Of a stretch of 55,420 bases of DNA, positions 25,708-44,600 are shown one piece after another; the stretch's first letter is position 1, and each line of letters begins with the position of its first letter. This stretch comes from Pirellulales bacterium. GTDB lineage: Bacteria; Planctomycetota; Planctomycetia; Pirellulales; Thermoguttaceae. The stretch is taken from positions 1 through 55,420 of the forward strand of contig JAFGRD010000164.1 in NCBI GenBank assembly GCA_016935315.1. The letters run 5' to 3'. Both the position numbers and the translations under genes were made by a program. The notes beneath the pieces were generated by a model. That model ran no database searches, was not told the origin of the DNA, and saw nothing but the letters and a program-made list of their open reading frames with translations.

Positions 25708-26165
25708 CGGCGGAAGGGTTCAGCGAATTGAACGGGGCCGAGACTGGCGGCTGCGGCTGAAGAACCGGTCCGAGCCTACCTCACCGGTCAATGGCGTGTC
25801 TCCGAGCCGCGGCCTTCACCGGGTGCATCCCCGCAACAGCATGGACAAAACCCCCGTTGCAGGAGGCATTCCGCGCAAAATACCGACCGGGATGGAACGA
25901 ATTACCGACGACGGCCGTCCCAAGCGGGGCCACATGATTGACAGAACCGGCAAAGTCATTATGATAGCTAGATGGTGGGGGGGGTTTTCCATCTCCAAGG
26001 GCGGATTGCCATTTCCATCGAGTTGGAGCACCGGTCGGGCCGGACGCGCGGGAATCCTTGCGACGATCTCGATGAGTGCTCGGGCCGTGCGGCAGGGCTT
26101 TCGGGGTATCTCTGAATCACCCGGAATCGGAACAAAGATCCCTTAGCAGAAGGAATACCTGGGCG
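25708..26165. other. Leader/promoter region of the first giant gene
   Basis: About 460 bases with no credible gene. It contains the candidate promoter at 25938-25965, an 8-G run (25977-25984) just after the predicted start of transcription, and a small AGATGG/CCATCT hairpin around that run. Confidence 0.5.
25938..25965 (+). promoter_or_regulatory. Near-consensus sigma-70 promoter for the 4014-aa giant gene
   Basis: TTGACA (25938-25943), 16-nt spacer, TATGAT (25960-25965). It is the best promoter match seen in the window. Transcription would start near 25972, giving a leader of about 195 nt before the ATG at 26166. Confidence 0.55.
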
Positions 26166-29100
26166 ATGACGCGACTTTCAGACACGTTGAGCCGTCTTGG
26201 GGCTTTTACCCGAAGCTGGAGCGGCAGAGGAAATCGAAAGGTGAAATCGCACGCGGCCCGGCCGGCGGCGTTACGCACGACCCGCTTGGAAACGTTGGAG
26301 GAACGCACCTTGCTGAGTATCGGCGCGGCCGACACCGACGAGTTGCTCTCCGTGCTGTCGTTGCCCGAGGTATGGTCGGGGGCATATGACAAGGAACAGG
26401 GGCTCTGGATCGACTTCAACGCCGCAGACGGCTTGGATCCAGGAGCAGCCGCGAAGATCGACTTGACGGTTGCCTCCGATCAGGGCATCGCCGGCCAGAT
26501 CTCGATTCCCGGCGCGTGGCTCGGCGAGGTGACCTTGGGCAACCGGGAATTTGCCCGATTGACGATCCCCGAGAGCGGCTGCACCGAAGCGATCGGCAAG
26601 CCGGAGTTGCCCGTGCTGCGCAGCCTGCTGACGGTTCCCAAGGACGCCGAAGTCACAGCTCAGGTCGACGGTCGGGCACAGTGGGTGTCGATGATGGACG
26701 TCGGCATGGACCAGCCGCTGGCGCCGGTGCAGGCACCGGTGCCCAAGATGGCCGGTGCCTTGGAGGCAGCCCCGCTGGACCTGGACCCGATGGCCTACGA
26801 AGCGGCGCCTGCGACCGTGGAGGCCGGCGTGCGGCTGGTCGAGTCGGGTGAACTGGCGGGCCAGCGCCTGGTGATGCTCGAGGTGACTCCGTTTGCCTAC
26901 GACCCGGTTGCCGAGGCCGTCGGCGTGTTTGACACGTTAACGTTTAGTGTGAGCTTCCAGGGAGGGCAGACGACCGCAACCGTGCTCTCGGCCAGCGAGA
27001 ACGCCCGACTCGAAGGAATCTCGGTCAACTACCAGGCCGGCAAGAACGTGGTCTCCGCGAAGACTGGCGGGCGGCTGCTGGTCATCGTTCATAACGATTT
27101 CCAGGGCGACATTGCTTCATACGTCACCCACAAGACGGGCATCGGCTGGACGGTCGACGTAGCCAACACGTCGACGGCAGGCGCGACGAACACGGCCATC
27201 CGCAGCTACATCCAGTCGCGATATGCCAATGTGGCCACGCGGCCCGACGCCGTGCTGCTGGTGGGCGATACCGACCGCATTCCTCACTTCGTTGGCAGCG
27301 GAGAGGGCAACCCGGTTACCGACCTCTATTACGGGTGCATGGACTCCGGCGACGACTGGTATCCAGAGATTCCCGTGGGGCGGTTCAGCGTGACCAACGC
27401 CACGGAATTGGGCAATGTGATTGCCAAGACGATCTGGTACGAGACCTCTTCCTCCGGCCCCTGGACGAACCATGCCACGTTCATGGCCAGCCAGGACAAT
27501 TACCAGATTACCGAGGGCACCCACGACTACGTGATCGACACGTACATGGATCCGCTGGGCTACACCAGCGACCGGCTGTATCAGGTGACTCACGGTGCAA
27601 CCACCCAGGACACCCGCAATTCGTTCAACACGGGAACGGCCCTGGGCGTCTATTCCGGCCACGGCTCGGAGACTTCCTGGGCCGACGGGCCGCCGTTCTC
27701 GCAGAGCGACGTCCGAAGTCTGACCAACGCCGGGATGTATCCGCTGGTGTTCAGCTTCGCCTGCGTTACCGGCAGTTTTCAGGTGGGCGAGTGCTTCATG
27801 GAGACGTGGCTTCGGCAGGCCGACAAGGCCGCGGTGGTGGCCGTCGGATCCAGTGTGAACAGCTACTGGACCGAGGATGACATCCTGGAGCGGGTGCTCT
27901 TCGACGCCATCTACGACGAGGGCTATGTGGGCATCGGCGACGCCTGGGTGCACGCCCGCGAACTCTACCTGGCGCACTTCGGCTCCGGCTCGACCACGCG
28001 ACGCTACTTCGAGATGTACAACATCATGGGCGATCCGACGGTCGTGGTCCTCGGGCTCGACTTCGCCATCACGTCGCCGACGGACTTGCCGATGGCCTTT
28101 GTGGGCGAGCCGTACGCCTACACGCTGCAGGCTAACAGCGGGACCGAGCCGTATGGCTGGGAGCTGATTGCCGGTTCGCTGCCGGCGGGGCTGAGTCTGG
28201 ACCCGGTCACAGGGACCATCAGCGGGACACCGGTGGTCTTGGGCACGGGAACGTTCACGATCGAAGCGACCGACGCGGAGTCGGCAACCGACAGCCGGGA
28301 GTTTCACCTGCCGGTCGTCAGCCGTTTTGCCATCACCATGCCCGGCGAGCTTCCCACGGGGTTTCTCGACCAGCCGTACAGCGTGACCTTGGCGGGCCAA
28401 GGCGGTACGCAACCCTATTCCTGGACTTTGCTGGGTGCGGGCGAATACCTCGAAACAGATCCCGGTTCCGGCTATCTCGGCGGCGGCACGCCGATGGGCT
28501 GGCACGCTGACGACAACAGTTGGCTGCTGAGCCTGCCGTTCAGCTTTCCTTACTACGGCGCCGAATACGACTCGGTCTACGTTTGTAGCAACGGCTTTCT
28601 CGATTTTGCCTCGGGCACGGCGGACTACACCAACACCCAGTCGGAGTTGGCCAATAACGCGCGGATCGCCGTGTTGTGGGATGACCTGTACACGGGCAAC
28701 GCGGACGAAGATATCTACGTCACCCAGACGGCCGACCACGTCGTCGTTCGCTGGGACGCGAGTACCTTGGGCCCCGGCACGCCGGTCGACGCCGAGGTCG
28801 TCCTGTTCTCCGACGGCCGGATCCAGTTCAGCTACGGCCAGGCCCACAGCGCGCTATCGCCGACCATTGGCGTCTCGGCGGGCGATGGAACCCACTACAC
28901 GATGTCGCACCGCGACAGCGCGACCAGCATCCCGGCCAACCAGTATTCACTGTTCAGCTACGGCAGCGTGCTTCCCGAGGGAATGGTGTTCGACGCCGCA
29001 GGCCAGATCAGCGGCATGCCGACCGAGGCCGGAACCTTCGAGTTTTCTGTCCTGGCAACCGATTCCGGGACGCCGCAGCAAGGCGATGTTCGCGACTTCA

Positions 29101-32100
29101 CGCTGGAGATTGTCGAGCTACCCCCGCTACTGCTGGAACTACCCGACGCCGCCACCGAGGGCGACGGCCTCTTGGTCGGCGCCGGCATCGTGAGAGTCTT
29201 CACTCCCGTTAGCACTGATCTGACCGTCCGTCTCCAATCGGAAGACGGATCGGAGGTTACGGTCCCGGCAACGGCGACCATACGGGCGGGCCACACATCG
29301 GCCACGTTCGATCTCCAGATTGAAGACGACACCCTGCTGGACGGGACCCAAGCGGCCATGATTACTGCTTCGGCCGACGGCTATTTCGGCACCGCCGGCG
29401 CGATCGCCGTCCACGACAACGAGAGCGCCGTGCTGACCGTCAGTGTGCCGGAGGAGGCCAGCGAGGGCGACGGCGTGCTTCTGCGGGCGGGAACGGTCAC
29501 GGTTGGCACCGCCCCCGATAGCGACGTGACCGTGAGTTTGGCTTCCGACGACGTCGCCGTGGTCGACGTGCCGGCCACAGTCGTGATCAGGGCCGGGACG
29601 ACTGCGGCCACGTTCGACGTGGTCGTCATCGACGACGCGATGATCGACGACACACAGACAGCCACCATCACGGCCCACGTGGAAAACTGGACCGACGGCT
29701 CCGATACGATCGCCGTGCTCAACGACGACGGTTGGATTGGTGTGTTGCTGCCGCCGAAGATTTGGGAGAGTCAGGGCACGCTTGCCGGGGCGGGCACGGT
29801 GACGCTCGGCGGGACCTTAACGAGCGACTTGGTCGTGTCGCTGGTTTCCGACGATACGAGCGAGTTGACGGTTCCCTCGGTGGTGATCGTTCCGGCCGGC
29901 CAGGCGTCGGCCACGTTCGATTTGACGGTCGAGGACGACGCCGACCAGGACGGAAAGCAACTGGTGCACGTGTCGGCGACGGCACCGGACCTGGTCGGCG
30001 GCAGCGGCACGACCAGCGTCGGCGACGACGAGATCCATCACTTTGCCTTCGATCCGATCGGCGATCCGCAGACGGCGAGCGTGCCGTTCGCGGTGACGCT
30101 TTCTGCCAAGGACGTCAACGACGAGACGATCGAGGTCTACGGGGGCGAGGTTGATTTGATCGGTGACGGCGACAGCGGGCCGGTTGCCGTCGAAATCAAT
30201 CCAGGGACCGGGACGGGCGAACGCGGAACCGCCAGCGAGGCGGCCTCCGACAAGAACAAGACGGCTGCCGTGTTGCCCTCCGGCGACGCTAAGGTCAGCC
30301 TGGGCGTGTACCATGATTATGCCACTCTGGGCGCCGATCTGGCCGAATACGCGACGCTCTATCCCGCGATCACTCGGCTGGTGTCGATCGGTCAGTCGGT
30401 CCAGGGCCGGGAGCTCTGGGCCATGAAGATCACCGATAACCCGGACATCGAGGAAAACGAGCCGGAAGTGAAGTACGTTTCGACTATGCACGGCGACGAG
30501 CCGGTCGGCACGGAGATGTGCATGTACTTCATCGACATGCTGCTGGACAACTACGGCTCCGATCCGCGGATTACCGCGTTGGTCGACGAAACGGAGATCT
30601 GGATCGTTCCGTTGATGAATCCCGACGGCCGGGAGGCCGAGACCCGGGGCAACGCCAACGGCGTGGACCTGAACCGTGCTTTCCCCGACGGGGCGGTGAC
30701 GCCGATCGGCAACATTTTCGACGGCCCGCCAATGGACACCGTCGGGCTCCAGCCCGAGGTGACCGCCGTGATGGAATGGAGCGCCGACCAGAGCTTCGTG
30801 CTCTCGGCCAATTTCCATACGGGAGCATTGCTGGTGAACTATCCGTATGATAACGACGGGCTCGGCAGCATCGACTCGCCCACGCCGGACGACGCGCTGT
30901 TCGAGTACATTTCAGAGGCCTACTCCGTGCATAACACGCCGATGTGGAACAGCACCGAGTTCCACCACGGCATCAGCAACGGGGCCGCCTGGTATTCGAT
31001 GACCGGCGGCATGCAGGACTGGAACTACCGTTACCTGGGCTGCAACGAGGTGACCATCGAGCTATCGGATGTCTTCTGGCCCGCCGAATCCTCGCTACTG
31101 GGATTCTGGACCGACAACCAGGAGTCGATGTTGAGCTACTTCGAAACGGCGCACATGGGCGTCCGTGGCCTGGTGACCGACGCAACCACGGGTGACCCAC
31201 TGTTTGCCTCGATCACCGTGGCCGGCAACAGCCAGCCGGTGTTCAGCGACGCCGATGTCGGCGACTACCATCGCATGCTTTTGCCGGGCACCTACGACCT
31301 GACCTTCTCGATTCCAGGATATGCCAGCCGGACGTTCCACGACGTCGTGGTCGGTGACGCGACGGCGACGTCGCTCGACGTGGCGCTGGCGCCGCTGAGT
31401 TCGGGGATCCTGTTCATCGACGGCGTGTGGACGGGCGAGGTTGCCGTGCACACGGTCGACACGAACGTCGTGCTGACCGCCGCCGACGGCCTGGGGCACG
31501 CCGGCTCCAGTAACGCTTTCGACGTTGCTGCCGGCCCAGTAGACCGCTTCCAGGTCAGTTCCGTCGCGTCGCCGCAGTCGGCCCACGTGCCCACGCCCGT
31601 AACTGTGACCGCCGTGGACGCGCACGGTCACACGGTGACCGATTTCGTCGGTCCGGTGAATCTCGGCGGCTGGGTCGGCAGCGGGACAACGTCGACCATC
31701 GTTATCTCGGAGGTCAACCCACACAGCGACGATTCCGCGGAGTTCATCAATGTCTCCGGCCAAAGCATCGACATCTCTGGTTGGCAGATGGTGATTTACG
31801 ACGCCGACAACTGGCCGGCGCCGAAGTTCACGGTAACCGTTTCGGCCAATACGATCTGCGCGGCTGGGGAGGCCTTCGTCGTCGGGGAGAACGGGACGCT
31901 GCCGGGTGCCTATCCGCAGTTCTGGACCGGTGGAAACATCTTCTGGGATAGTGATTCAGAGGGCGCCGTGCTGCTGCTGGATGCCACCGGTCAGCCCGTC
32001 GACTTCGTCTGCGTCAACGGGGCGGAAGCGTCTTCGATCATCGACCCGATCGCAATCGGTGCCGACCAGTGGCAGGGACCACCGGTGGCCGTCGCCGCGT

Positions 32101-35100
32101 CGCCGAATACGTATGAACGGTTCGGAGACACCGACCACAACGACCAGCGCGATTGGCGGTCGGCGGCCAACACGATCGGCTCGCTGAATCCCGGTTTGTC
32201 GATCCCCTTCGGCGGGGGCGCGATTCCGGTCGCCGTCACGCCTACGGTCACCGGCGATTTCGTCGACGGCGTTTGGGTGGGCGAGGTGACGATCCTGGAG
32301 GAAGTCGCCGCGATGTATCTGATGGCCGACGACGGCACCGGTCACGTGGGAGTGACCAACCTGTTCGACGTGGAATTGCTGCCGTTGCTGGTGATCGACC
32401 TGTCCAGCAGCGCCACCGAGGGCGACGACTTCGTGATCGGCGCCGTCGACATTCCGGCGCCGCTGGCGACCGACCTGGTCGTCACGCTGCAGGCCGACGA
32501 CTCGTCGGAAGTGACTTTCCTCTCGCCCACTGTGACCATACGTGCCGGAGACACCTATGCCACGTTCGATTTGCTGATCGAGGACGACGTGATTCTCGAC
32601 GGGACGCAGATCGTCACCGTGACGGCGTCCGCCGACGGATATCGCGACGGGACCACCGTGATCGCCGTCAACGACAACGAGTCGGCAACGCTGACCGTGG
32701 CCTTGCCGGCCAGCGCGTCGGAAGGTGACGGCATTTTGACGGGGCAAGGCATCGTGTCGATCGGGGCCGCCGCCGGCAGCGATGTGGTCGTCAGCCTGAC
32801 CTCACACGACACGACCGAAGTCACTGTGCCTGCAACAGTGACGATTCCCGCAGGAGCGGATTCCGTTGTCTTCGACCTGACGATCGAAGACGACTCGCTC
32901 ATCGATGGTGTGCAGGCGACCACGATCGCCGCCTACGTGGAGAACTGGACCGACGGAGCCGGCGTCATCGACGTCGAGGACAACGACGCATTCCTGAGCG
33001 TGTTGTTGCCGGCGCTCGTTTGGGAAGGCGGCGGGACACTTGCCGGCGCCGGTACGGCGACCATCGGCGGCACGCTGGAGACGGATCTGGAGGTCGCACT
33101 GGTTTCCGACACTCCGGACGAGTTGACCGTGCCCGAGATGGTGATCATTCCCGCCGGGCAGACTTCGGTGGCGTTCGACCTGATCATCCACGACGACGCC
33201 GACTTTGACGGCAGCCAGCCGGTGGTGATTACCGTCACGGCTTCCGGGCTGACCGACGGCTCCGAGAGCATGGAAGTCGGAGACGACGAAGTCCATCACT
33301 TTGCAGTCGACACCATCAACTCGCCGCAGACGGCCGGTGAGCCGATCGGCGTCATGATCTGGGCGGAGGACGTCAACGGAGCGACGATCCTCGTGCATGC
33401 GGGCACGGCGGGGCTCAGTGCGGTGGGCGCTGGCGGGCCGATTCCGGTCGTCCCAGCCACCACCGAGGCATTCGTCGGCGGTGTGTGGACCGGCAACGTC
33501 GTCCTCAGCACCGTCGACACGGGCGTCGTGCTGACGGCCGAAGACACCCTGGGACACGCCGGCAGCAGCAACGCCTTCGACCTAGTCCCCGGCGAAGTCG
33601 ATCACTTCGTTTTCAGCACGATTACCTCGCCGCAGAATGTCGACGTTCCGTTCTCCGTTACGCTCACAGCCGTGGACGCGCATGGTTATACGGCGACTGG
33701 CTTCAACGGCACGGTCGCTCTGAGCGGCCGGACTGACAATCCCAAAGACGTGGGCGAGATTCTGCTCTGGGAGAGCAACGACCAGTATCGATTCACCAGT
33801 GCGCTGAACGGGCTCGGCCTTGCCTATCAGACCTTTTTCGGCTGGGACGACTTCTCTGCTGCCGTTGGGGCGGCAAGTCCCACCGACGATCTGGTGATCG
33901 TGTCCGAAGCCGGCAGTGCACCCAGCAGTTGGGATAGTCTGATCGACTTTGTTTCCGCCGGCGGACGGGCCGTCGTCGAATTCTGGGACTTAGATCAGGT
34001 ACCGCAACTGGCGACTGCCCTTGGGGCGACCGTCACCCAGGATATGTTCACACCCGAGCCGCTGTACAATTGGGGCACTTCGTCGCTGTTTGCCGGGTTG
34101 GCCAGCCCGATCGGTTTTGCCGAGACGGGCTGGAACGACGACGGCGACCGGCTCCAGCCGACCGCGGGCAACCTGGCCGCGGCGGGTTTCGTCGTCGGCC
34201 CTACCACAGGCCAGACAGCCTTGGTTCTGGGCAACTCAGGCATGACGCTACTCCACGGCTTCTTGCTGGACAACGTCACTGACGTCGCGGACGCCATCCA
34301 GTTGGCCACCAACGAAATCCAACTGCTTGTCCAGAGTGGCTCGACGGCAGTGGCCATTTCGCCTGCGGCAGTCGTGCCGACCGACGGCGTGTGGACCGGC
34401 GACGTCACCGTACTTGCGGAGGCCGCCGACATGTACCTGCTGGCCAACGACGGCAGCGGACATCTCGGCCAGAGCAACCGTTTCGACGCCGAACTGTTGC
34501 CGCGGTTGGTCGTCGACGTCCCACAGAACGCCGTCGAGGGCGACGGTCTCGTCCAAGGAACGGTGAGTATTCCGGAGCCTCTTGAGGCCGACCTGGTCGT
34601 CACGCTGGTGTCGGAGGACGAGACCGAAGCGATGCTGCCCTCACTCACGACCATTATCACGGCCGGGGAGACCTCCGCAACATTCGACGTGCAGGTCATG
34701 GACGATGCGCTGCTGGACGGAACGCAAGTCGCGAGGATTGTCGCTTCGGCCGTGATGTACCGCGACGGCACGGGCGGCCTGGTCGTCCATGACAATGAGA
34801 CAGCCCCGCTGGTGGTGATCTTGCCCGACGGTCTGGCCGAAGGCGACGGTCTATTGACCGAGATCGGCCTGGTCACCGTTGGTGTGGCCCCGGACGAAGA
34901 CGTCGTCGTCACGCTGATTTCCCAGGACGTGAGCGAGATCATTGTGCCGAACGTGGTGATCATTCCCGCCGGAGCGGTTTCGGCCCGTTTCGACGTGACG
35001 GTGGTCGACGACACGGAGATCGACGGCGTACAGACGGTCGTAGTCTCCGCCCAAGTGGAGAACTGGACCGACGGCCTCGACGCGACCGACGTGGCCGACA

Positions 35101-38100
35101 ACGAGGGCCTGGACCTGGTTGTCACCTTGCCGTCGGAGGCATGGGAGGGCCAGGCGGCGTTGCCGGGAGTTGCCACGGTGAGCATCTCCGGCACACTGCC
35201 GGCCGACCTCGTCGTGTCGCTGCAGTCCGACGACTTGAGTGAGTTGCAGGTTCCCCCTATCGTGACGATTCCGGCCGGGGCCACCTCGGCTACGTTTGAC
35301 TTGGTTTTGCCCGACGACCCGGACTACGACGGTTCGCAGACGGCCACCGTTACGGCCAGCGCGGCCGGACTCAACGACGGCACAGCGGCCATGGAAGTGG
35401 CCGACAGCGACGTGCACCACTTCGCGTTCGATACGGTCGCCAGCCCGCAAAGGGCAGGTGCCACGTTCGGTGTGACGATCCACGCCAGGAACATCGACGA
35501 CCGCACGATCTTGGTGTACGACGAGGCGGTGAGCCTCAGCGGCAGCGGCGACGCGGGCGCGGTGGCCCTCAGCCCGACCACTGCCAGCCCATTTACCGAC
35601 GGCATGTGGACCGGTGGCGTGGCGGTCGAAACGCTGGCCACCGGTCTGGTGCTTACCGCCGACGACGGCCTAGGGCACATCGGCGCCAGCAACGCCTTCG
35701 ACGTCGTGGCCGGTCCGGTCGACCATTTCGTGTTCGGCCCGATTTCTTCCCCGCAATACCTCGATGTTCCCGTGCCGGTAACGATCGTCGCCCAGGACGC
35801 CCACGGTTTCACGGCGGCTGACTTCACCGGAACGGTGAATCTGCGGGCGAGTTCGGGCGCCGGGGAAGGAGAGTATTTCGAGATCGATCCCGGTCCGCAG
35901 TACATCGGTGGCGGGACGTCCATGGGCTGGCACGCCGACGACGCCAGTTGGCTGTTGACACTGCCATTCAGCTTCCCGTTCTACGGCGTTGAGTACAATT
36001 CGGTTTACGTCTGCAGCAACGGCTTCCTGGACTTCGCGTCCAACTACGCCGATTACACGAATTCGCAGGCAGAGCTGATCAGCAACGTGCGTATCGCTGC
36101 GGTGTGGGACGACCTCTACACGGGCGGCGCGGGAGAGGACATCTACGTGACCCAGACGGCTGATTTCGTGGCCGTTCGCTGGGACGCAAGCACCTTGGGA
36201 TATGGGACTCCCGTCGACACGGAAGTGGTCCTCTTCCGGGACGGACGGATTCTGGTCAACTACGGCCAGACACACACCAACCTCTCGCCGACAATCGGCA
36301 TTTCGGCGGGCGACGGCGTGAACTACCTGCTATCGAGCTTCAACGGAGCTTCTTCGATTGCGGCCAACGTGTCTAGGGAATACTCTTCCGCCAATGTGCT
36401 CATCGCGCCGGACGTCAGTGGCACGTTCGTCGCCGGTGTATGGTCCGGCGAGATCATGATGCTCGATACGGCCACCAGCGCATATCTGATGGCCAGCGAC
36501 GGCGGCGGCCATCACGGCCAAAGCAACACCTTTGACGTGCAGCCCGATCGTCCTCCTTCGGCCGAAGTGATCGACGTCGTGCCCGATCCTCGCAACGCGC
36601 CGGTCGGCGAAATCATGATCGTCTTCGACGAAGAGGTCGTTGGATTCGACCTTTCCGACCTCGCGCTGAATCTCAACGATGCGGCCAACGTCGACACGAT
36701 CGGCTCGGCGACGGACTCTTGGGTCGGCGGAGGTCTCGGACGACTCAACGCCTACGAGGTGTCGACGACCACCGCGCTGAGCGAGATTGAGATCTATCTC
36801 GATGTCACCGCGTCGACCACCATCGAGTTCGTCGTTTACGAGGCTGGCCCCACGTCCAGTGATCCCTACCAGCAGGTCTTTGCGACCACGCTGGTCGATT
36901 GCGGCACCGGACAGCGGTTCTATAGCTCCGGGCCGATCCACGTGGCGCTCGAGGCGGGCCGAACGTACATGATCGGTGCCGCGTGGGAAGGTGACGTGAC
37001 GTACTACCGTGGGTCGGCCAACGACGTCTCGTTCGGCACATCGCTTGGTTTTGTCCGATACAGCGAGTATCCTTCGCCGGAAACGCTCGATCCGCCGCTG
37101 GGCGCTTCGGTAGCCTACTACTACCGACTGACCACACCGCAAGACATCCCCTTGGTACCCGGCGAACAGACGCTTCAGACGGCCGACAACGTCCATTTCA
37201 CCTTGGGCGGTCTGGCAGGACTGACGGCCACCGCGGGCAACTACCGGCTGAGGCTCGCCGCGGCCGGATCGGGAATCGAGGACATGGGAGGCAACCCGCT
37301 TGCCGCGGATGCTGAGGAGACTTGGGTCATGGCGGTCACGGAAGTCGCCGGCCGGTACGTCTTCTACAACGACTCCGCCTTCGACGACAACGATCCGGCC
37401 GCCAACGCCAGCGACGATGACGCCATCGCCTCCGACAAGGAAGCCCTGTTGCCCGGCCAGACGGCCACATTCGCCAATTACACCAGCTACAGTCTGGGCC
37501 TCAACGGGCTGATGATCGACGTGCGCGGTTTGGCCAATGCCGCCGGGTTGGACGCAGCCGACTTCCGGTTCCGCGTGGGCAACAGCGACGACCCGGGTAC
37601 GTGGGACACCGCCCCAGATCCGGTCTCCGTGAGTGTGCGGGCGGGCGAAGGCGTAGAGGGCTCCGACCGGGTAACGATCATCTGGGCAAGCGGCGAGATC
37701 CGCGGCCAGTGGCTGCAGGTAACGATGTTGCCCGGCGAAGACAGCGGCCTTGCCGAAGCCGACGTCTTCTACTTTGGCAACGCCGTGGGCGAAGCCGGCA
37801 ATTCGACAACCAACGCCCAGGTCAACGCCACTGACATGCTCCTGGCCCGCAACAACCCGCGCACCTTCCTGAACCCGGCCGCAATTGACTTCCCTTACGA
37901 CTACAACCGCGACGCGCGAGTCAACGCGACCGATATGCTTCTGGCGCGCAACAACCAGACCCATTTCCTCAATGCGCTGAAGTTGATCACGGTGCCGGCG
38001 AAAGGAGCCGCCGCAATCGGCGAGAAGATACTCGCCCGCGATCGGATGTTGTGGCAACCCCCTGGCCGGCAAGCGGCTGTCGGGGAGAATGCGAGAGACA

Positions 38101-38210
38101 GACTGTCGCTGCTGTACGAATTCGAGTGGATGGAAATGCAGCGGCGATCGAATGACAACGGCACTGGAGAAGAAGCGGTAATCGACAACGTGATGGCCTT
38201 CTGGCCGTAG
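26166..38210 (+). CDS. Giant LEPR-XLL protein: gingipain-type and M14 peptidases on a Calx-beta/Ig scaffold
   Basis: Protein of 4014 aa. Residues 41-51 (LETLEERTLLS) are a variant LEPR-XLL signal. A C25-type propeptide (KPELPVLRSLLTVPKDAE) and a gingipain-like peptidase domain (about 301-629) follow, with the catalytic pair in YSGHGSETSW (His499) and FSFACVTGSF (Cys533). Two putative-Ig domains come next, the second split by a nidogen-like domain. Then come three supermodules, each of three Calx-beta-like repeats and two Ig-like domains. Guests inside the Ig-like domains are an M14 zinc carboxypeptidase (His1442, Glu1445, His1551, catalytic Glu1632) with a transthyretin-like tail, a lamin-tail domain, a Rossmann-like domain and a second nidogen-like domain. 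A Big_5-like domain, also split, and the shared dockerin module with a charged tail end the chain. It should be secreted and calcium-stabilised. AAGGA lies 11 nt before the ATG. Activities are inferred from motifs. Confidence 0.9.
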   Translation: MTRLSDTLSRLGAFTRSWSGRGNRKVKSHAARPAALRTTRLETLEERTLLSIGAADTDELLSVLSLPEVWSGAYDKEQGLWIDFNAADGLDPGAAAKIDLTVASDQGIAGQISIPGAWLGEVTLGNREFARLTIPESGCTEAIGKPELPVLRSLLTVPKDAEVTAQVDGRAQWVSMMDVGMDQPLAPVQAPVPKMAGALEAAPLDLDPMAYEAAPATVEAGVRLVESGELAGQRLVMLEVTPFAYDPVAEAVGVFDTLTFSVSFQGGQTTATVLSASENARLEGISVNYQAGKNVVSAKTGGRLLVIVHNDFQGDIASYVTHKTGIGWTVDVANTSTAGATNTAIRSYIQSRYANVATRPDAVLLVGDTDRIPHFVGSGEGNPVTDLYYGCMDSGDDWYPEIPVGRFSVTNATELGNVIAKTIWYETSSSGPWTNHATFMASQDNYQITEGTHDYVIDTYMDPLGYTSDRLYQVTHGATTQDTRNSFNTGTALGVYSGHGSETSWADGPPFSQSDVRSLTNAGMYPLVFSFACVTGSFQVGECFMETWLRQADKAAVVAVGSSVNSYWTEDDILERVLFDAIYDEGYVGIGDAWVHARELYLAHFGSGSTTRRYFEMYNIMGDPTVVVLGLDFAITSPTDLPMAFVGEPYAYTLQANSGTEPYGWELIAGSLPAGLSLDPVTGTISGTPVVLGTGTFTIEATDAESATDSREFHLPVVSRFAITMPGELPTGFLDQPYSVTLAGQGGTQPYSWTLLGAGEYLETDPGSGYLGGGTPMGWHADDNSWLLSLPFSFPYYGAEYDSVYVCSNGFLDFASGTADYTNTQSELANNARIAVLWDDLYTGNADEDIYVTQTADHVVVRWDASTLGPGTPVDAEVVLFSDGRIQFSYGQAHSALSPTIGVSAGDGTHYTMSHRDSATSIPANQYSLFSYGSVLPEGMVFDAAGQISGMPTEAGTFEFSVLATDSGTPQQGDVRDFTLEIVELPPLLLELPDAATEGDGLLVGAGIVRVFTPVSTDLTVRLQSEDGSEVTVPATATIRAGHTSATFDLQIEDDTLLDGTQAAMITASADGYFGTAGAIAVHDNESAVLTVSVPEEASEGDGVLLRAGTVTVGTAPDSDVTVSLASDDVAVVDVPATVVIRAGTTAATFDVVVIDDAMIDDTQTATITAHVENWTDGSDTIAVLNDDGWIGVLLPPKIWESQGTLAGAGTVTLGGTLTSDLVVSLVSDDTSELTVPSVVIVPAGQASATFDLTVEDDADQDGKQLVHVSATAPDLVGGSGTTSVGDDEIHHFAFDPIGDPQTASVPFAVTLSAKDVNDETIEVYGGEVDLIGDGDSGPVAVEINPGTGTGERGTASEAASDKNKTAAVLPSGDAKVSLGVYHDYATLGADLAEYATLYPAITRLVSIGQSVQGRELWAMKITDNPDIEENEPEVKYVSTMHGDEPVGTEMCMYFIDMLLDNYGSDPRITALVDETEIWIVPLMNPDGREAETRGNANGVDLNRAFPDGAVTPIGNIFDGPPMDTVGLQPEVTAVMEWSADQSFVLSANFHTGALLVNYPYDNDGLGSIDSPTPDDALFEYISEAYSVHNTPMWNSTEFHHGISNGAAWYSMTGGMQDWNYRYLGCNEVTIELSDVFWPAESSLLGFWTDNQESMLSYFETAHMGVRGLVTDATTGDPLFASITVAGNSQPVFSDADVGDYHRMLLPGTYDLTFSIPGYASRTFHDVVVGDATATSLDVALAPLSSGILFIDGVWTGEVAVHTVDTNVVLTAADGLGHAGSSNAFDVAAGPVDRFQVSSVASPQSAHVPTPVTVTAVDAHGHTVTDFVGPVNLGGWVGSGTTSTIVISEVNPHSDDSAEFINVSGQSIDISGWQMVIYDADNWPAPKFTVTVSANTICAAGEAFVVGENGTLPGAYPQFWTGGNIFWDSDSEGAVLLLDATGQPVDFVCVNGAEASSIIDPIAIGADQWQGPPVAVAASPNTYERFGDTDHNDQRDWRSAANTIGSLNPGLSIPFGGGAIPVAVTPTVTGDFVDGVWVGEVTILEEVAAMYLMADDGTGHVGVTNLFDVELLPLLVIDLSSSATEGDDFVIGAVDIPAPLATDLVVTLQADDSSEVTFLSPTVTIRAGDTYATFDLLIEDDVILDGTQIVTVTASADGYRDGTTVIAVNDNESATLTVALPASASEGDGILTGQGIVSIGAAAGSDVVVSLTSHDTTEVTVPATVTIPAGADSVVFDLTIEDDSLIDGVQATTIAAYVENWTDGAGVIDVEDNDAFLSVLLPALVWEGGGTLAGAGTATIGGTLETDLEVALVSDTPDELTVPEMVIIPAGQTSVAFDLIIHDDADFDGSQPVVITVTASGLTDGSESMEVGDDEVHHFAVDTINSPQTAGEPIGVMIWAEDVNGATILVHAGTAGLSAVGAGGPIPVVPATTEAFVGGVWTGNVVLSTVDTGVVLTAEDTLGHAGSSNAFDLVPGEVDHFVFSTITSPQNVDVPFSVTLTAVDAHGYTATGFNGTVALSGRTDNPKDVGEILLWESNDQYRFTSALNGLGLAYQTFFGWDDFSAAVGAASPTDDLVIVSEAGSAPSSWDSLIDFVSAGGRAVVEFWDLDQVPQLATALGATVTQDMFTPEPLYNWGTSSLFAGLASPIGFAETGWNDDGDRLQPTAGNLAAAGFVVGPTTGQTALVLGNSGMTLLHGFLLDNVTDVADAIQLATNEIQLLVQSGSTAVAISPAAVVPTDGVWTGDVTVLAEAADMYLLANDGSGHLGQSNRFDAELLPRLVVDVPQNAVEGDGLVQGTVSIPEPLEADLVVTLVSEDETEAMLPSLTTIITAGETSATFDVQVMDDALLDGTQVARIVASAVMYRDGTGGLVVHDNETAPLVVILPDGLAEGDGLLTEIGLVTVGVAPDEDVVVTLISQDVSEIIVPNVVIIPAGAVSARFDVTVVDDTEIDGVQTVVVSAQVENWTDGLDATDVADNEGLDLVVTLPSEAWEGQAALPGVATVSISGTLPADLVVSLQSDDLSELQVPPIVTIPAGATSATFDLVLPDDPDYDGSQTATVTASAAGLNDGTAAMEVADSDVHHFAFDTVASPQRAGATFGVTIHARNIDDRTILVYDEAVSLSGSGDAGAVALSPTTASPFTDGMWTGGVAVETLATGLVLTADDGLGHIGASNAFDVVAGPVDHFVFGPISSPQYLDVPVPVTIVAQDAHGFTAADFTGTVNLRASSGAGEGEYFEIDPGPQYIGGGTSMGWHADDASWLLTLPFSFPFYGVEYNSVYVCSNGFLDFASNYADYTNSQAELISNVRIAAVWDDLYTGGAGEDIYVTQTADFVAVRWDASTLGYGTPVDTEVVLFRDGRILVNYGQTHTNLSPTIGISAGDGVNYLLSSFNGASSIAANVSREYSSANVLIAPDVSGTFVAGVWSGEIMMLDTATSAYLMASDGGGHHGQSNTFDVQPDRPPSAEVIDVVPDPRNAPVGEIMIVFDEEVVGFDLSDLALNLNDAANVDTIGSATDSWVGGGLGRLNAYEVSTTTALSEIEIYLDVTASTTIEFVVYEAGPTSSDPYQQVFATTLVDCGTGQRFYSSGPIHVALEAGRTYMIGAAWEGDVTYYRGSANDVSFGTSLGFVRYSEYPSPETLDPPLGASVAYYYRLTTPQDIPLVPGEQTLQTADNVHFTLGGLAGLTATAGNYRLRLAAAGSGIEDMGGNPLAADAEETWVMAVTEVAGRYVFYNDSAFDDNDPAANASDDDAIASDKEALLPGQTATFANYTSYSLGLNGLMIDVRGLANAAGLDAADFRFRVGNSDDPGTWDTAPDPVSVSVRAGEGVEGSDRVTIIWASGEIRGQWLQVTMLPGEDSGLAEADVFYFGNAVGEAGNSTTNAQVNATDMLLARNNPRTFLNPAAIDFPYDYNRDARVNATDMLLARNNQTHFLNALKLITVPAKGAAAIGEKILARDRMLWQPPGRQAAVGENARDRLSLLYEFEWMEMQRRSNDNGTGEEAVIDNVMAFWP
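28437..28962 (+). repeat. Nidogen-like guest module, copy 1, inside an Ig-like domain
   Basis: Encodes GEYLETDPGSGYLGGGTPMG, then LPFSFPYYGAEYDSVYVCSNGFLDFA and DEDIYVTQTADHVVVRWDAS. The flanks are two halves of one putative-Ig domain: PYSWTLLG before and LPEGMVFDAAGQISGMPTEA after. The module therefore interrupts its host exactly where the host normally continues. Copy 2 lies 7.4 kb downstream in the same gene. Confidence 0.85.
29121..32384 (+). repeat. Supermodule repeat 1 (three Calx-beta-like plus two Ig-like, with M14 and lamin-tail guests)
   Basis: About 1088 codons. Calx-beta-like units start at PPLLLELPDAATEGDG, AVLTVSVPEEASEGDG and WIGVLLPPKIWESQG. The first Ig-like unit (HHFAFDPIGDPQTASVPF) is split by the M14 carboxypeptidase and transthyretin-like domain (about 30198-31400). 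It resumes at FIDGVWTGEV. The second (VDRFQVSSVASPQSAHVPT) is split by a lamin-tail domain (about 31686-32220) and resumes at DFVDGVWVGEV. Confidence 0.85.
32385..34502 (+). repeat. Supermodule repeat 2 (one Rossmann-like guest)
   Basis: About 706 codons with the same order of units as repeat 1. The first Ig-like unit (HHFAVDTINSPQTAGEPIG) is uninterrupted, which shows the bare form of the host. The second (VDHFVFSTITSPQNVDVPF) is split after NGTVALSG by a guest of about 200 residues (33738-34344). The guest begins with VGEILLWESND and contains DDLVIVSEAG and GGRAVVEFWD. The host resumes at DGVWTGDV. Confidence 0.85.
34503..36542 (+). repeat. Supermodule repeat 3 (nidogen-like guest)
   Basis: About 680 codons with three Calx-beta-like units (RLVVDVPQNAVEGDG, APLVVILPDGLAEGDG, LDLVVTLPSEAWEGQ), then an uninterrupted first Ig-like unit (HHFAFDTVASPQRAGATFG). 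The second Ig-like unit (VDHFVFGPISSPQYLDVPV) is split by the second nidogen-like module and resumes at FVAGVWSGEI. Confidence 0.85.
35862..36408 (+). repeat. Nidogen-like guest module, copy 2
   Basis: Encodes GEYFEIDPGPQYIGGGTSMG, LPFSFPFYGVEYNSVYVCSNG and GEDIYVTQTADFVAVRWDAS, very close to copy 1 at protein level and still recognisable at DNA level. It is inserted in a different kind of Ig-like host than copy 1. Confidence 0.87.
37345..37984 (+). repeat. Shared C-terminal module, copy 2 (dockerin-containing)
   Basis: Runs from GRYVFYNDSAFDDNDPAANA to THFLNALKLI. Same strands and two dockerin-like repeats (VNATDMLLARNNPR, DYNRDARVNATDMLLARNN) as copies 1 and 3. It is followed by a charged tail ending AVIDNVMAFWP. 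Confidence 0.9.
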
Positions 38211-38643
38211 TCCGCCCGTACGAAGTCTTCCAGAAAGCCGACAACGGAACCCGGCCCCGGGATCCCGAAACTCGTTTGCGGCTCGCAACTTCCACTCAGA
38301 GGCCCAGTGATACGTCGCCCCTGTGGAGGGGTCGCATTTGCTGCAGCAGGCCCCTCTTCGAACCAGACGGTAGGCATTGCTTGCACGTAAGGACATTTCT
38401 GTCATAATAAGCGGTTGGGCTGCATGGGTGCTTTCGTGTTCGGCAGCCCTGATCACTCGATAGTGGCGGAAGCTCCCGGCACGGCGCGAGGCAGATAATC
38501 GACCGGGGCCTTGCTGCAGGCATCCGGCCGTTGCTGATACAAATTCGGAACAGTTCTTTCTTCTCCATACCTGCGGCATACTGCCCCGCAACGAGCCGGA
38601 CCTCGCACCCGGACGGCGGAGCGAGCACTCAATGGAGGTCGTC
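38211..38643. other. Intergenic region between the two giant genes
   Basis: About 430 bases, no credible gene. A small hairpin (CCCCT 38318-38322, AGGGG 38327-38331) without a T tract and a candidate promoter at 38381-38408 are the only signals seen. Confidence 0.5.
38381..38408 (+). promoter_or_regulatory. Candidate promoter for the 3651-aa giant gene
   Basis: TTGCAC, 16-nt spacer, CATAAT (or an 18-nt spacer to TAATAA). Spacer and distance to the start codon (about 235 nt) resemble the promoter placed before the other giant gene. Confidence 0.4.
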
Positions 38644-41600
38644 GTGCTTCGCAATCTCAGGAATTCGACGGTGGGGGCCCGGCCGGCGGTGTTTGGACGC
38701 GGGCCGATGGCCGGGCCAAGAGGCCTTGACCGAAAGCTGCTGATGGAGCCGCTCGAGCCACGGCTGGTGCTCGACGGCAGCTCGCTGGTGATCAGCGAGT
38801 TCATGGCCGACAACGAAACCGTGCTGGCTGATTGGGAAGGGGATTATGAGGACTGGCTGGAAATCTACAACCCCACGGCCGATCCGGTCGATCTGACCGG
38901 GTGGTACCTGACGGACGACCAAACGGACCCGAAACAGTGGCCGTTGCCCGAAATGACGATTGCGGCGGGCGAGTACCGAGTCATCTTTGCCTCGGGCAAA
39001 GATCTCACAGATCCGGCCGGCGAGTTGCACACCGACTTCTCCCTCAGCCGCGCTGGCGAGTACCTAGCGCTGGTCCAGGGTAAAGGTGCCGAGGCCACCA
39101 TCGTGTCGGCCTACGCGCCCGAGTATCCGCAGCAATACGAAGACGTGTCGTACGGGCTGCATTCCGATCTGGTCACTGAGGGCTATTTCCTGCAACCGAC
39201 GCCCGGAGACCCCAACGACGCCTTTCCGGTGGACGACCCGACCAACGTGGTGTTGATCAGTGAGATCATGTACCACCCGGTCGTGGAGACCTACAATGCC
39301 GATGCACAGGTTTTCGAGGAAGAGTACATTGAGCTGGTCAACCGGGGTCCCGGGGCGATCGACCTCGGGGGTTGGCAGTTGACCGAGGGAGTGGCGTTCA
39401 CGTTCCCCGACGTCACGCTTGAGCCCGGTGCATTTCTGGTCGTAGCCGCCGACCCGGCAGCGTTTCAGACGACCTATCAACCGTCGCCGGAGGTAACCGT
39501 CGTCGGTGGTTGGACCGGAAGACTGAGCAACAGCGGCGAAGAGATCGAGTTGGTCGACGCTGCCGGCCGTGTGATGGACCGCGTGACCTACGCCGACGAA
39601 GGCGATTGGGCCGAGCGCGAGGCACGTCCTCCGGATCAATGGGGCCATGCGGGTTGGGTCTGGTCCGATGCTCACGACGGACTGGGGAAGTCGCTGGAGC
39701 TGGTCACCACGGCCCTCTCCAATGAGAACGGGAAGAGTTGGACGGCCAGCATGCCGGACGGTGGCACACCGGGGCAACCCAATTCGGCCGCCGCCGCAGA
39801 CGTGGCGCCGTTGATCCTCAACACATCCCACTGGCCGGCGATTCCCCGGTCCACCGACGCGGTCGCGGTGACGGCGCAATTGAAGGACGAGTTGGATACC
39901 GGCGTGACGGCAACGGTCTACTACCGTAGCGACGGCGCGGCCACATTCAACACGGCGGCGATGCGCGACGACGGCCAAAGCGGTGACGGCGATGCCGGCG
40001 ATGGTGTCTATGGCGCCATGTTGCCTGCCCGACCCAACGGGACGATCGTTGAACTCTACGTTGAGGCGTCCGACGGCACCGGCCATGCGCGGACGTGGCC
40101 TGCCCCGACTCAGCCCAGCGGTCAGCAGTTGACCAATCTGCTCTACCAGGTCAACGACACGTTCGACCCAATCGCGGCGTGGGTTCCGGGGGACCCGCCG
40201 GTCTACTACCTGATCATGACGGAGGTCGAGCGAGCCGAACTGGCCGATATCGGCGACGGCGGTGACGTGTTTTGCGACGAGCCCCGCAGCGACGCCCAGA
40301 TGAACGGCACCTTCATCAGCATTGACGGCGGGAGCACTCAAGTCCACTACAACGTGGGAATCCGCAACCGGGGCAACCAGACGCGGGCTCAACAGCCCAA
40401 CAACTACCGGGTGAACTTTCCGCAGGACAAGGCCTGGAAGGGTGTCACGGCGATCAACATCAACAGCAATCACTCCTTCTCCCAAGTCATCGGCAGTGCG
40501 ATGTTCCGCATGGCGGGCATCGCGGCGCCCGACGCCACGGCAGTCAGGGTCCGCGTCAACGGGCAAGACCTGGCGCTGGCGGGCTCGCACATGTACGGCG
40601 TGTATTCCGCGGTCGAGGTTTACGACAGCGACTATGCCGACCACCATTATCCCGACGACTCGACGGGCAACGTCTACCGTGCCTCCTACAACCAGCCTTG
40701 TGGCGGCACGCGCACCTATGCCGACTTCTGCTATAAAGGTGTTTACCCCTACCACAACCCGGATGATTACCGCCTGAACTACCCCAAGAGAACCAATGAA
40801 TCGGAGGATGACTGGAGCGACTTGTTCGATCTGCTCGACGCGCTGAACAACCCCACGGGTTCGGACGCGGAGTTTCTCGCCGAGCTCAATCAGATCGTCG
40901 ACGTGCGGCAATGGATGCGTTTTCTGGCGGCGGATTTCCTGCTGGGCAACGGAGAAGGCGGCCTGGTCACCGGCAGCGGCGACGACTTCGCCATGTACTG
41001 CGGCAGGGAGAACCGGCAATTCCAGTTGCTGCCGCACGATCTCGACACACTGTTCTCCACGCGCGCTACCACCATTTGGACCTACGATCGAACCGGTATT
41101 TGCGGTCTGAACCGCATGTTCGACCATCCCGAAATCGTGCGGATCTACTTTCAGGAGCATTTGGATCTGATCAGCACGGTCTTCGCCCCTGAGAACTTCA
41201 ATCCGATAGTCGAAGAGTTGCTGGGCAACGCGGCGCCGCAGTCGACGATCGATTCGATCAAGAGCTTTGTAGCGCAGCGGGTGGCGGGCGTCCTGGGTGA
41301 GATCCCGCAGGAGTTCAGGATCAACAACCCCAGCTTGCCGACCTCCGGCGGCTTCCCGATCACCGACCAGCCGACAGTGGCTCTGAGCGGCACGGCTCAC
41401 GCGTCCGAGACGGCTTCGGTGCTGGTCGACGGTCGGCCCGCCGTCTTCCTGCCGCGAACCGGCCAGTGGACGGCCAGCGAGACGACCGGCGGCTACGTCG
41501 CCGACACGCTCGTGGCCTCCGATACTCTGGTGGCCTATCACGTGCCAACCGCCGGAGAGGATCCGCTGGGCTGGACGGCCACCGAGTACAACGATAGCCA

Positions 41601-44600
41601 TTGGATCCGCGCGACCGAAGTTGAACCGGCCGGGCTGGTGATTACCGAGATCTCCACGGGCCAGCCGCGGTTCGTCGAAATCGAGAACGTGTCGCGCGAG
41701 GCGATTGACACCACCGGCTGGTCGGTGCTGGTCAACAGCGCGTCGGCCGGCAACGTCAACGATGTGCTCGGCACCGCATGGAGCCTGCCCGATTCCATTG
41801 GGGCCGGCGACGTCCTCTATCGCACCGACGACGCGGCCGCGGGCGACGCGTATTGGGGCAGTCAGATCGCTTGGAACGCCGAAGGCCCCGGTTGGACCAT
41901 GATCATCGACGATAGCGGCAACGTGATGGACTTCGTCGCCTGGGGCTACGGCGCCACGGAAATCGCGTCGCTCGAAGTGAGCTTCGGCCCGTGGACAGGC
42001 ATCCGGGGCGACGATCAGTGGAGCGGACCGGGAGCCGCAGTCGGCACGGCCGGCCAGGGCGGACAGCCAGTCTCGCGCTTCGTCGCCTACAACGACCACT
42101 TTGCCGGAGCCGGCACCCACGCCGATACGACCACCTATGCCGCCAATGGGACCGCCACCGGATTGCTGAAGGACATCGCCACCGGGTCGGCTCCGGGCGT
42201 CACGCTGACGACTTCCCAAAACGCGGTCGAATTCGACAACAGCTCCAATTGGCCCGCTGCGGGAACCGATGCCTACAGCGTCTTCAACGGCTACGTCGAT
42301 TTCTCGGCCGGTACGGGCTGCAGCCTCGAACTCGACGCCGATCTAGGCGCCTCGTACACGCACACGTTTTCGGGCCTGGATACCGGCGACGAGGTGACCT
42401 ATGACTTCGCCGGCACGTCGGTACGCGGCAACAGCAGCTACATCAACCGGTGGATCCAGGTCACCTTGGTGGGAGCTGAGGGTATCGCCGCCCATAGCAG
42501 CGGGTGGGGAGTGATCGTGTTGGACGCGAAGAACGTTGCGCTGATGGTCGGCGACAATGCCCAGGCCGATCAAGGGTTCATTGTCGGCTGGACCGAGATT
42601 GATCCGGGGACCGACGGAGAGTTCGCGATCGTCACCACTCAGTACGTGGGGCCGACGCCGGGCATTGGCAGCGGCATGGCCGACGGGCGGATCGGCTACG
42701 GCCTGACCGCCATTCGGCTCGAGGAGGTCGGCCCCGGCCAGCCCCTTTCTTTCCTGCGACGGGAGGGCGACTCCGATAGCCAGACGGCCGACGACTTCGC
42801 GCGGACCGATGCAGGCAGCCAAGGAGTGGAGAATCCGGACTTGACCGTCCCGTTTGGCAGCGTTGTCGCCAATCGGCAGGGTGTCGGCTTCAGCGCCGGC
42901 CAGCCGCAGTTCGACGCGGTGATCCGGACTAACGTCGCCGAGGTAATGCAGGGTGTCAACGCGTCGCTGTGGACGCGCGTCGAGTTTCCCGTGGGCGATA
43001 CGACACCCTACGACACGCTGACGCTCAGAATGAAGTACGATGATGGTTTCGTGGCCTATCTCAACGGCACGGAAATTGCCCGACGCAACGCCGACAGCCC
43101 CCTGGCATACGACACGGCCGCCTCGGCCGAGCACCCCAACGCCCTGGCCGTCCAGTTTGAGGAGATCGACGTCACCGCGTTTCTCGGCGCGCTGCGGCCG
43201 GGAACCAATGTGTTGGCGATCCACGGCCAGAACCTAGCGGCCGCCGACAGTGATTTTCTCATCCAGGGAGAACTGGCAGCCACCGGCGGCACGCCGGGCA
43301 TGGCACCGCAGTTGCACCCGGGCGTCAACCGCATCTGCGTGCAAACCTTCGACGGCCCCAACGGCACCGGCAACCAGTTGCAGCGAGACTTCATCGACGT
43401 CTGGTACGACCCGCCCACCCCGCCCAAGGACTCGGAAAAGCAGCAGGTATTGGACATGACGGTCCGCGACAGCTACCTTTCGGGCGTGCCGGTCCTGGTG
43501 CGGGTCGAGGTCCACGACGACCAGAACGAGGTGGACCGCGAGTTGTGGGACGCCGTGGCCACGCTCAGTTCCGACAATCCCAACGTCACGATCTCGCCCA
43601 ACCAGGTGACCCTCTACAACGGGCTGGGGAGCGGGCTCATAACGTTCACCGGCACCGAGCCGTTTCAGCTCACCGCCAGCATTGCGGGGCTCGGGCTCGA
43701 TGTGTCGAGCACGCTGACCAGCCTCGACGGTATGTCGATTGCCAGTGTCTCGGGCGCGCTTTCCGGCAATACGACTTTCAGCGGGGTCGTCCATGTGACC
43801 GGCAATCTGACCGTTCCCGACGGCAGCACGCTCACACTCGATCCCGGCACCCTGGTGCTAATCGACGGCGTGGCCAGCGGCAGCGGCGGCACGGTGATTA
43901 CTGTAGCCGGTGATATCCAGTCGCTGGGAACGAAGACCCGCCCCGTCACGTTCACCGCGTATACGGCCGGAGAGAACTGGGGCGAGATCCTCCACGACAA
44001 CGCCGAGCCATCCCTCTATCTGTACACGAACATCAACCAGGGCGGCCATTCGACTGCCCGCGGACACTCCAACACGGGCCCGACCATCCGCAATTCGGGC
44101 GGCAACACGATCGTCTTTGACCACGCCAACCTGACCGACGAGGCGGGCAAAGTGATGCACGGCTCGTCGGGCGAGAACCTCACGTTCCGCGACTGCATCA
44201 TGGCACGCGCGGTCATGGGCCCGGAAATCTGGCCCAGCAGCCTCCTTATCGAGGACACCTGGATCACCGACATGCACCACGTCGACGACGCCGACGGTAT
44301 CTACATCCAGAGCGTTCGTGCGCCCAACGCCTTGATGACGGGCGGCGTGTCGGCCGTATTCGACGACGACGCCATCGACACGCTTAGCGCCGAGATCCGC
44401 GTCGAGGACTGGATCGTTCGCGACGCCAACGACAAGGGCTTCAGCATCTACGACGACGAGGTGTGGATCAGCCGCTGCTTGGTCGTCGACAACGCCAAAA
44501 ACCCGGAGGACGGCATCGCTGCCAGCATTGCCTCGAAGGGGTATAGCGACGAGTACGTCACGGTCAACATGGACCACGTCACCGTGGTGGCCACCCCCAT

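Follow-up and report, generated by a model that had tools for sequence, protein, structure and literature searches.

The window analyzed here, positions 1-55,420 of a contig from a Pirellulales bacterium (JAFGRD010000164.1, assembly GCA_016935315.1), contains a gene for a 4014-amino acid (aa) protein whose immunoglobulin-like (Ig) units are interrupted by other domains. One class of these hosts, the b-type Ig units, probably acts as a set of reusable acceptors in which the kind of guest domain has been exchanged occasionally. The open frame spans 26076-38210 on the + strand, and translation from the ATG at 26166 gives the 4014 aa. Pfam matches include the C25 propeptide and peptidase, He_PIG, NIDO, M14, CarboxypepD_reg and the lamin tail domain (LTD). 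By eye, a supermodule occurs three times, each consisting of three Calx-like repeats, then an a-type Ig unit, then a b-type Ig unit. Hosts and guests are arranged as follows.

26166-38207, +, gene for the 4014-aa protein, with C25 propeptide and peptidase, a pair of He_PIG domains, the three supermodules, a Big_5-like domain and C-terminal dockerin-like repeats
28320-28436, +, He_PIG 2, N-half, host
28437-28964, +, guest 1, nidogen-like domain within He_PIG 2 (NIDO profile)
28965-29120, +, He_PIG 2, C-half, host
29127-30044, +, Calx-like repeats 1-3, unsplit, internal control
30033-30218, +, Ig unit R1a, N-half, a-type host; end uncertain by about one strand
30219-31403, +, guest 2, M14 carboxypeptidase and CarboxypepD_reg within R1a (Pfam)
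31404-31526, +, Ig unit R1a, C-half; start uncertain by about one strand
31539-31670, +, Ig unit R1b, N-half, b-type host (profile and model)
31671-32219, +, guest 3, lamin tail domain of LTD-II type in slot A of R1b (Pfam, model)
32220-32378, +, Ig unit R1b, C-half (profile and model)
32388-33302, +, Calx-like repeats 4-6
33294-33587, +, Ig unit R2a, intact a-type host
33600-33728, +, Ig unit R2b, N-half (profile)
33729-34343, +, guest 4, alpha/beta-looking domain without Pfam match, slot A of R2b
34344-34496, +, Ig unit R2b, C-half (profile)
34506-35423, +, Calx-like repeats 7-9
35415-35708, +, Ig unit R3a, intact a-type host
35721-35849, +, Ig unit R3b, N-half (profile)
35850-36392, +, guest 5, nidogen-like, 72% identical to guest 1, slot A of R3b
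36393-36542, +, Ig unit R3b, C-half (profile)
36549-36683, +, Big_5-like domain, N-half, weak host assignment
36684-37142, +, guest 6, beta-rich-looking, no Pfam match over cut-off, within the Big_5-like domain
37143-37337, +, Big_5-like domain, C-half, weak

Split Ig units and their guests

The original prediction held that the second Ig unit of every supermodule breaks at the same place and that the first is unbroken in repeats 2 and 3. Both observations stand. The three b-type units are split at one hairpin, slot A, after FVGPVNLGG, FNGTVALSG or FTGTVNLRA, and resume before a GVWxG strand, and R2a and R3a are both intact. A host profile was made from seven intact Ig units only, with the b-units of the window absent; an earlier profile that included them gave stronger E values. 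The intact-only profile detected both halves of R1b (9.8e-10 and 1.2e-15), R2b (6.2e-12 and 4.6e-13) and R3b (3.9e-12 and 1.5e-12). All six halves are in frame, with some profile pieces extending slightly into the guest. No GVWTG-type Ig unit, whole or joined, gave a Pfam match above a cut-off, which serves as a warning that split host domains escape annotation by profiles.

The structure of R1b with its LTD was predicted with AlphaFold2 from a 20-row alignment. The best model has a mean predicted local distance difference test score (pLDDT) of 89.1 and a predicted template modeling score of 0.70. VIA-align, which reports ranges and not residue pairs, aligned single contiguous Ig domains spanning residues 1-5 to 283-287 of the model, with 94-99 residues aligned. 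These were FdeC (4e9l, Z 9.7, root mean square deviation (rmsd) 2.6), complement C5 (6rqj_B, Z 9.6, rmsd 3.2), invasin (1cwv, Z 8.9, rmsd 2.8) and intimin (6tqd_A, Z 8.5, rmsd 2.9). Because the host has about 100 residues and 94-99 of them align, both R1b halves very probably form one Ig domain in the predicted structure. The lamin tail 3jt0_A aligned with residues 54-163 (Z 11.7, 103 residues, rmsd 2.4). The single-Ig alignments come from this second look with VIA-align; the 12 Foldseek matches with E up to 0.001 are lamin tails and the DUF4876 protein 4q1z. A discontinuous Ig-like fold with the guest leaving from a loop is thus indicated for one b-unit by model and for three by sequence. Since the intact-only profile finds both halves and the model aligns to single Ig domains, the halves are regarded as parts of one domain and not as separate domains.

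An M14 carboxypeptidase had also been placed inside R1a. The nesting is supported, as the intact-only profile detects the two halves at 2.3e-19 and 1.5e-17, but the loop is not fixed and may be the same hairpin or one strand later. The R1a pieces overlap on the profile model, the N-piece reaching position 56 and the C-piece starting at 43 (53 and 43 in a relative, genome G490). When the 22 residues after the break were compared with intact units, 0/300 shuffles scored as high for the window and 45/300 for G490. The candidate that M14 certainly occupies a second slot one strand later was withdrawn, since the intact-only profile fits either loop.

The guests are about 150-395 aa long vs about 100 aa for the Ig host. 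The M14 guest (PF00246) scores 232.5 bits, and H1442, E1445, H1551 and E1632, which we take to be its metal and catalytic positions, are invariant across 24 aligned rows. No match to it at 1e-20 was found in 56 other genomes of the order. A public genome scan covered the best 80 of 121 loci, and flanks were inspected for 34 segments in 32 loci. Apart from one relative described below (L143), the M14 relatives inspected appear to be free-standing secreted enzymes or lie within other proteins. Free-standing relatives and invariant catalytic positions together suggest that an Ig domain took in a complete enzyme. LTD guest 3 (PF00932) scores 42.4 bits (cut-off 34.3). For NIDO (PF06119, cut-off 25), guest 1 scores 30.3 bits and guest 5 scores 20.4, below the cut-off. 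Guest 4, earlier labeled Rossmann-like, has no Pfam or Protein Data Bank (PDB) sequence match.

Different guests at one loop

The original prediction suggested searching genomes for the same host with other guests at this loop. In the genomes searched, slot A carries an LTD, a NIDO, an alpha/beta-looking domain, a jelly-roll-like guest, or no guest. The same Ig nesting occurs on contigs of four genomes. Paralogue C137 of the window's own genome, a 3045-codon frame with the same plan, has an LTD in the He_PIG slot where the window has NIDO, an LTD in R1a where the window has M14, an empty R1b where the window has an LTD, and an LTD in R2b. C31, also in the own genome, has one b-unit with an LTD inside. 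A third own-genome paralogue, C57, has one intact He_PIG and one containing NIDO. In genome G254 the b-unit contains an LTD of another type than the window's, and in G464 one b-unit contains the G254-type LTD and another the jelly-roll-like guest. A PDB sequence search with the jelly-roll guest returned a single chance-level match (E 0.72).

The closest comparison is with locus L143 (JABMRB010000311.1, genome G490), in which 13 other compared segments are 45-69% identical to the window. Its R1b host halves are clearly related to those of the window (z 23.6 and 22.9 against shuffles), whereas its R1b guest is unrelated to the window LTD (z -0.1) and is 52% identical to the jelly-roll guest of G464. 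As a side observation, the contig is titled Candidatus Nealsonbacteria, but the genome is 9.1 Mb and carries a planctomycete-type giant gene, so the label is probably wrong.

Guests are unevenly distributed among the repeats. Among the units found, b-units are split in 9/10 cases and a-units in 3/11, while Calx-like repeats, which five of the nine searched frames contain, are split in 0/32. Fisher tests, which treat related units as independent and are a guide only, gave p = 1.1e-6 for Ig units (12/21) vs Calx-like repeats and 0.0075 for b vs a. The class-wide host search scored only 12 candidates per genome and may have missed some host units, and the tallies count units found. The 21-unit tally includes two a-units truncated at contig ends that the 19-row host tree lacks; tally and tree both exclude a fragment at the end of G464 C86. 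That tree (81 columns) separates a from b at 100/98 and resolves little else. Among 12 distant class-wide host loci, the four inspected (two in part) had intact Ig repeats and no guests were seen. A scan of genome contigs with R3a gave no match, with own-genome records possibly excluded.

The same guest is also found in different hosts. Guests 1 and 5, the NIDO pair of the window, share 72% identity yet lie in different host types, He_PIG and Ig, and the resemblance tails off where the guests end. The NIDO borne by He_PIG in C57 is 65% identical to the window's. LTD-II is present in both a and b hosts, which form separate groups in the host tree, but this may reflect early presence followed by later losses. 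The argument that phylogeny proves repeated LTD entry into the Ig slot was dropped, since approximately unbiased (AU) tests do not reject a single clade. With repeated entry not required by the trees, the case for exchange rests on differing kinds of guest.

Other host families

The split He_PIG domain named in the original prediction was confirmed. Joined halves score 49.0 bits against PF05345 (cut-off 24) vs 38.1 for the guest plus the C-half, and He_PIG 2 is likewise split by NIDO in C57 and L143. The split Big_5-like domain (PF13205) fared less well. Joined halves cover profile positions 4-100 of 105 but score 14.6 bits (cut-off 23.6), and a home-made profile shows no gain over shuffles.

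A jelly-roll host, presumably typical of LTD/CotH proteins, has 36 matches in the own genome, of which the 27 with E no higher than 1e-20 were tallied; 34 jelly-roll loci of other genomes were inspected outside this tally. Six of the 27 are intact at both examined places, with 0-5 residues between DDSxW and GVGYE. In the other 21 the host is interrupted: an LTD precedes GVGYE in 19, and in 2 the break comes directly behind this motif. The LTD was assigned by an LTD-I match in 15 of the 19 and by LTD profile or reading in 4. By hand count, 8/19 LTD guests seem to hold a further guest, and in two of these eight (L278 and L288) the second jelly-roll place seems to be filled too. Pfam was applied to ten guest stretches, of which five come from the own genome, four from G464 and one from G224. 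It names PA14, DUF1349, LamG, F5/8C or LTD in five of them and no family in the remainder. One of the six intact hosts (C81:79683-80768) has matches 7-101 and 97-138 about 680 bases apart, perhaps marking a third acceptor loop.

The gene adjacent to that of the 4014-aa protein (38632-49599, 3655 aa) has many lamin tail domains and a doubly nested jelly-roll host.

41530-41604, +, next gene, jelly-roll host, N-part
41605-42879, +, next gene, LTD guest, apparently with another guest inside (LTD match 41629-41946)
42880-43272, +, next gene, jelly-roll host, C-part

Judged by their flanks, LTD-I guests are housed in the Ig slot, in He_PIG, in the jelly-roll host and in an SdrD_B-like host, the last by our own reading. 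At L109 a SpaA-type match (459-484) stands just before the LTD (497-607). The best SdrD_B stretches there end at profile position 64-74 of 112, and the second half is beyond the profile's reach. By reading, C31 (L020) also has beta-propeller repeats between both ends of SdrD_B-like domains, and G254 and G070 have PPC-like domains that seem interrupted. L100 (own genome, C164) is an open frame of 12346 aa in which a NIDO is surrounded by HAF-like repeats. The own genome has 170 LTD matches in 7.1 Mb, apparently a large expansion.

We are evenly divided on a wider reading, in which the giant secreted proteins of this lineage would have a recursive plug-in architecture. In each of several unrelated beta-domain families (the GVWTG-type Ig, He_PIG, the jelly-roll of LTD/CotH-type proteins, SdrD_B-like and probably PPC), one fixed loop or a small set of them would accept guests. 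The guest pool would comprise LTD, NIDO, PA14, LamG, beta-propeller and M14, with LTD and NIDO occupying multiple host types and LTD guests in turn accepting others.

Alternative explanations and known systems

Several results weigh against frequent exchange, or against individual steps of the argument. In jelly-roll hosts guest distance tracks host distance (Mantel r 0.75, 15 rows, 0/5000 permutations), and the own-genome rows alone behave similarly (n=11, r 0.47, 22/5000). The 15 rows combined L306 (G227) with 14 of the 19 hosts in the own genome that bear an LTD; L272 was dropped because its anchor motif failed, and L273, L274, L278 and L288 were left out. Because guest distance follows host distance, jelly-roll guests appear to be mostly inherited with their hosts. 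Neither a single clade of all Ig-slot LTDs (p-AU 0.135) nor a b-only clade within LTD-II (0.078) is rejected by AU tests. The junction DNA of the six guests, which the original prediction had suggested aligning for recombination traces, contained no repeats beyond chance and no convincing shared DNA, save for 10 bp at M14, and 7/200 random pairs have a repeat as long. The R1b of L143 is equally near R2b (47%) and R1b (48%) of the window, so its orthology rests on its position beside the M14 unit. L143 moreover stops after R2a and has another C-terminal part, without R2b or a third supermodule. The five AlphaFold2 models of R1b spread from pLDDT 89.1 to 69.4. Structure prediction with the guest in place, also suggested originally, thus joined the halves of R1b, but the R1a model is confident for the enzyme only (residues about 91-450), and its host halves, with pLDDT below 50, are uninformative.

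One alternative is a stable ancestral nesting, in which a few host copies acquired guests early and host and guest were then duplicated or lost jointly with little or no exchange. The correlated jelly-roll distances and the AU tests favor such a history, and it is a serious though unlikely alternative. One insertion cannot yield four kinds of guest in one Ig slot, nor would it account for one slot differing between two relatives while 13 other segments align, and the NIDO copy has crossed host types. Neutral accretion, in which insertions occur anywhere, tolerant loops survive and guests have no projection or cargo role, would agree with a survey of pooled families, the consulted portion of which reports uniform positions and broad tolerance (PMC13114784). 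We consider it improbable, since guests are present in 12/21 Ig units vs 0/32 Calx-like repeats (five proteins), the catalytic positions of the M14 guest are kept, and a reading of the 4014-aa protein placed none of such extra domains between hosts.

Two further explanations concern whether the nesting is real. The halves might be independent small domains that flank an ordinary domain in series, and in keeping with this a usable model was obtained for the LTD case only and the Big_5-like host is weak. This is very improbable, as intact copies of the unit exist and their profile finds both halves, the R1b model aligns end to end with single contiguous Ig domains, and joined He_PIG outscores guest plus C-half. 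An assembly or binning chimera borders on the incredible. The doubtful title of L143 for a 9.1 Mb genome would fit one, but the long frames are free of stops (4044, 3045, 2765 and 2337 codons, two cut by contig ends) and Ig nesting recurs on contigs of four genomes.

We therefore favor b-type Ig units as acceptors with occasional exchange of guest kinds, in a narrower form than first proposed. The docking slot survives in that one Ig hairpin takes different guests or none with the host recognizable on both sides. It is not one standard slot, because other host families use loops of their own. Cargo swapping survives in that the slot guest differs between relatives and between paralogues. Easy swapping does not, as jelly-roll guest divergence follows the host and the junctions are unmarked.

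The protein would then be a giant secreted peptidase on a rod of Calx-like and Ig-like domains. At one beta-hairpin the chain would exit the Ig unit, fold a complete guest and return to finish the unit. Because the two ends of a hairpin are near each other, a domain whose own termini are adjacent could be carried with the shaft uninterrupted. The guest would be held beside the rod axis, so that cargo could change in evolution and the shaft remain unbroken. Cargo such as the M14 peptidase, NIDO or LTD may give each copy its own substrate or attachment. Exchange would be occasional, probably through ordinary recombination within host or guest halves and selection for tolerated loops, with no dedicated mechanism.

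Guest-bearing split Ig-like domains are already known from RTX adhesins. According to the portions of two accounts used here (PMC10865825, PMC12077191), a discontinuous Ig-like domain in a long beta-sandwich rod projects guests sideways; these include a carbohydrate-binding module, an RTX roll, PA14 and a peptide-binding domain, and a vWFA domain leaving the C-terminal beta-roll carries its own insert. The window protein resembles these adhesins, as there described, in its split Ig-like domain within a beta-sandwich rod and in its varied guests. It differs in having a C25 peptidase head (M36 or S8 in relatives) and no RTX repeats by Pfam, as no RTX family is among its 8 Pfam matches with E up to 0.01. 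It also differs in having a complete M14 enzyme as guest and several host families with slots of their own, and here the slot was compared between relatives and the guest found to be replaced. No account of a slot system of this kind was found in the open-licence literature searched.

The consulted portion of the ECOD survey (PMC13114784) reports for pooled families that insertion positions are uniform and that inserts are smaller than hosts (median 115 vs 199 residues). The present proteins share with families in that portion the A1-B-A2 insertion, role-consistent hosts and multi-level nesting. Unlike them, the slot is fixed per host family and the guests are larger than the Ig host of about 100 aa. 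The pooled survey, to the same extent, saw no localized insertion sites. The 'Planctosome' model, in the part of PMC6461901 used, proposes that separate peptidases, LTD proteins and P-domains assemble, with an LTD protein as the peptidase anchor. LTD proteins accompany extracellular peptidases and dockerins in planctomycetes there as here, but in the window protein LTD and peptidase share one chain. LTD and Ig-like domains have been noted in a giant gene, in the part of PMC5177795 consulted. Loops that are empty or filled by various guests bigger than the host are natural experiments in domain insertion. They make testable what lets a fold accept guests, a question in protein evolution and design, and suggest how planctomycete-type giant proteins swap cargo yet keep the rod.

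Both ends of these proteins offer minor observations. The Calx-Ig supermodule is joined to differing peptidase heads, C25 in the window, M36 in G254 and S8 in G464 (loci L051, L237 and the window). The G464 relative has a weak Planc_extracel match (20.2 bits, cut-off 25.5), which along with the gene family points to a planctomycete source. Dockerin-like repeats VNATDMLLARNN end a C-terminal module common to several giant proteins, possibly a shared anchor or sorting end. The module lies at aa 3888-3930 of the window protein and aa 3538-3580 of the next gene, and is also present in C137, C31, C57 and L143.

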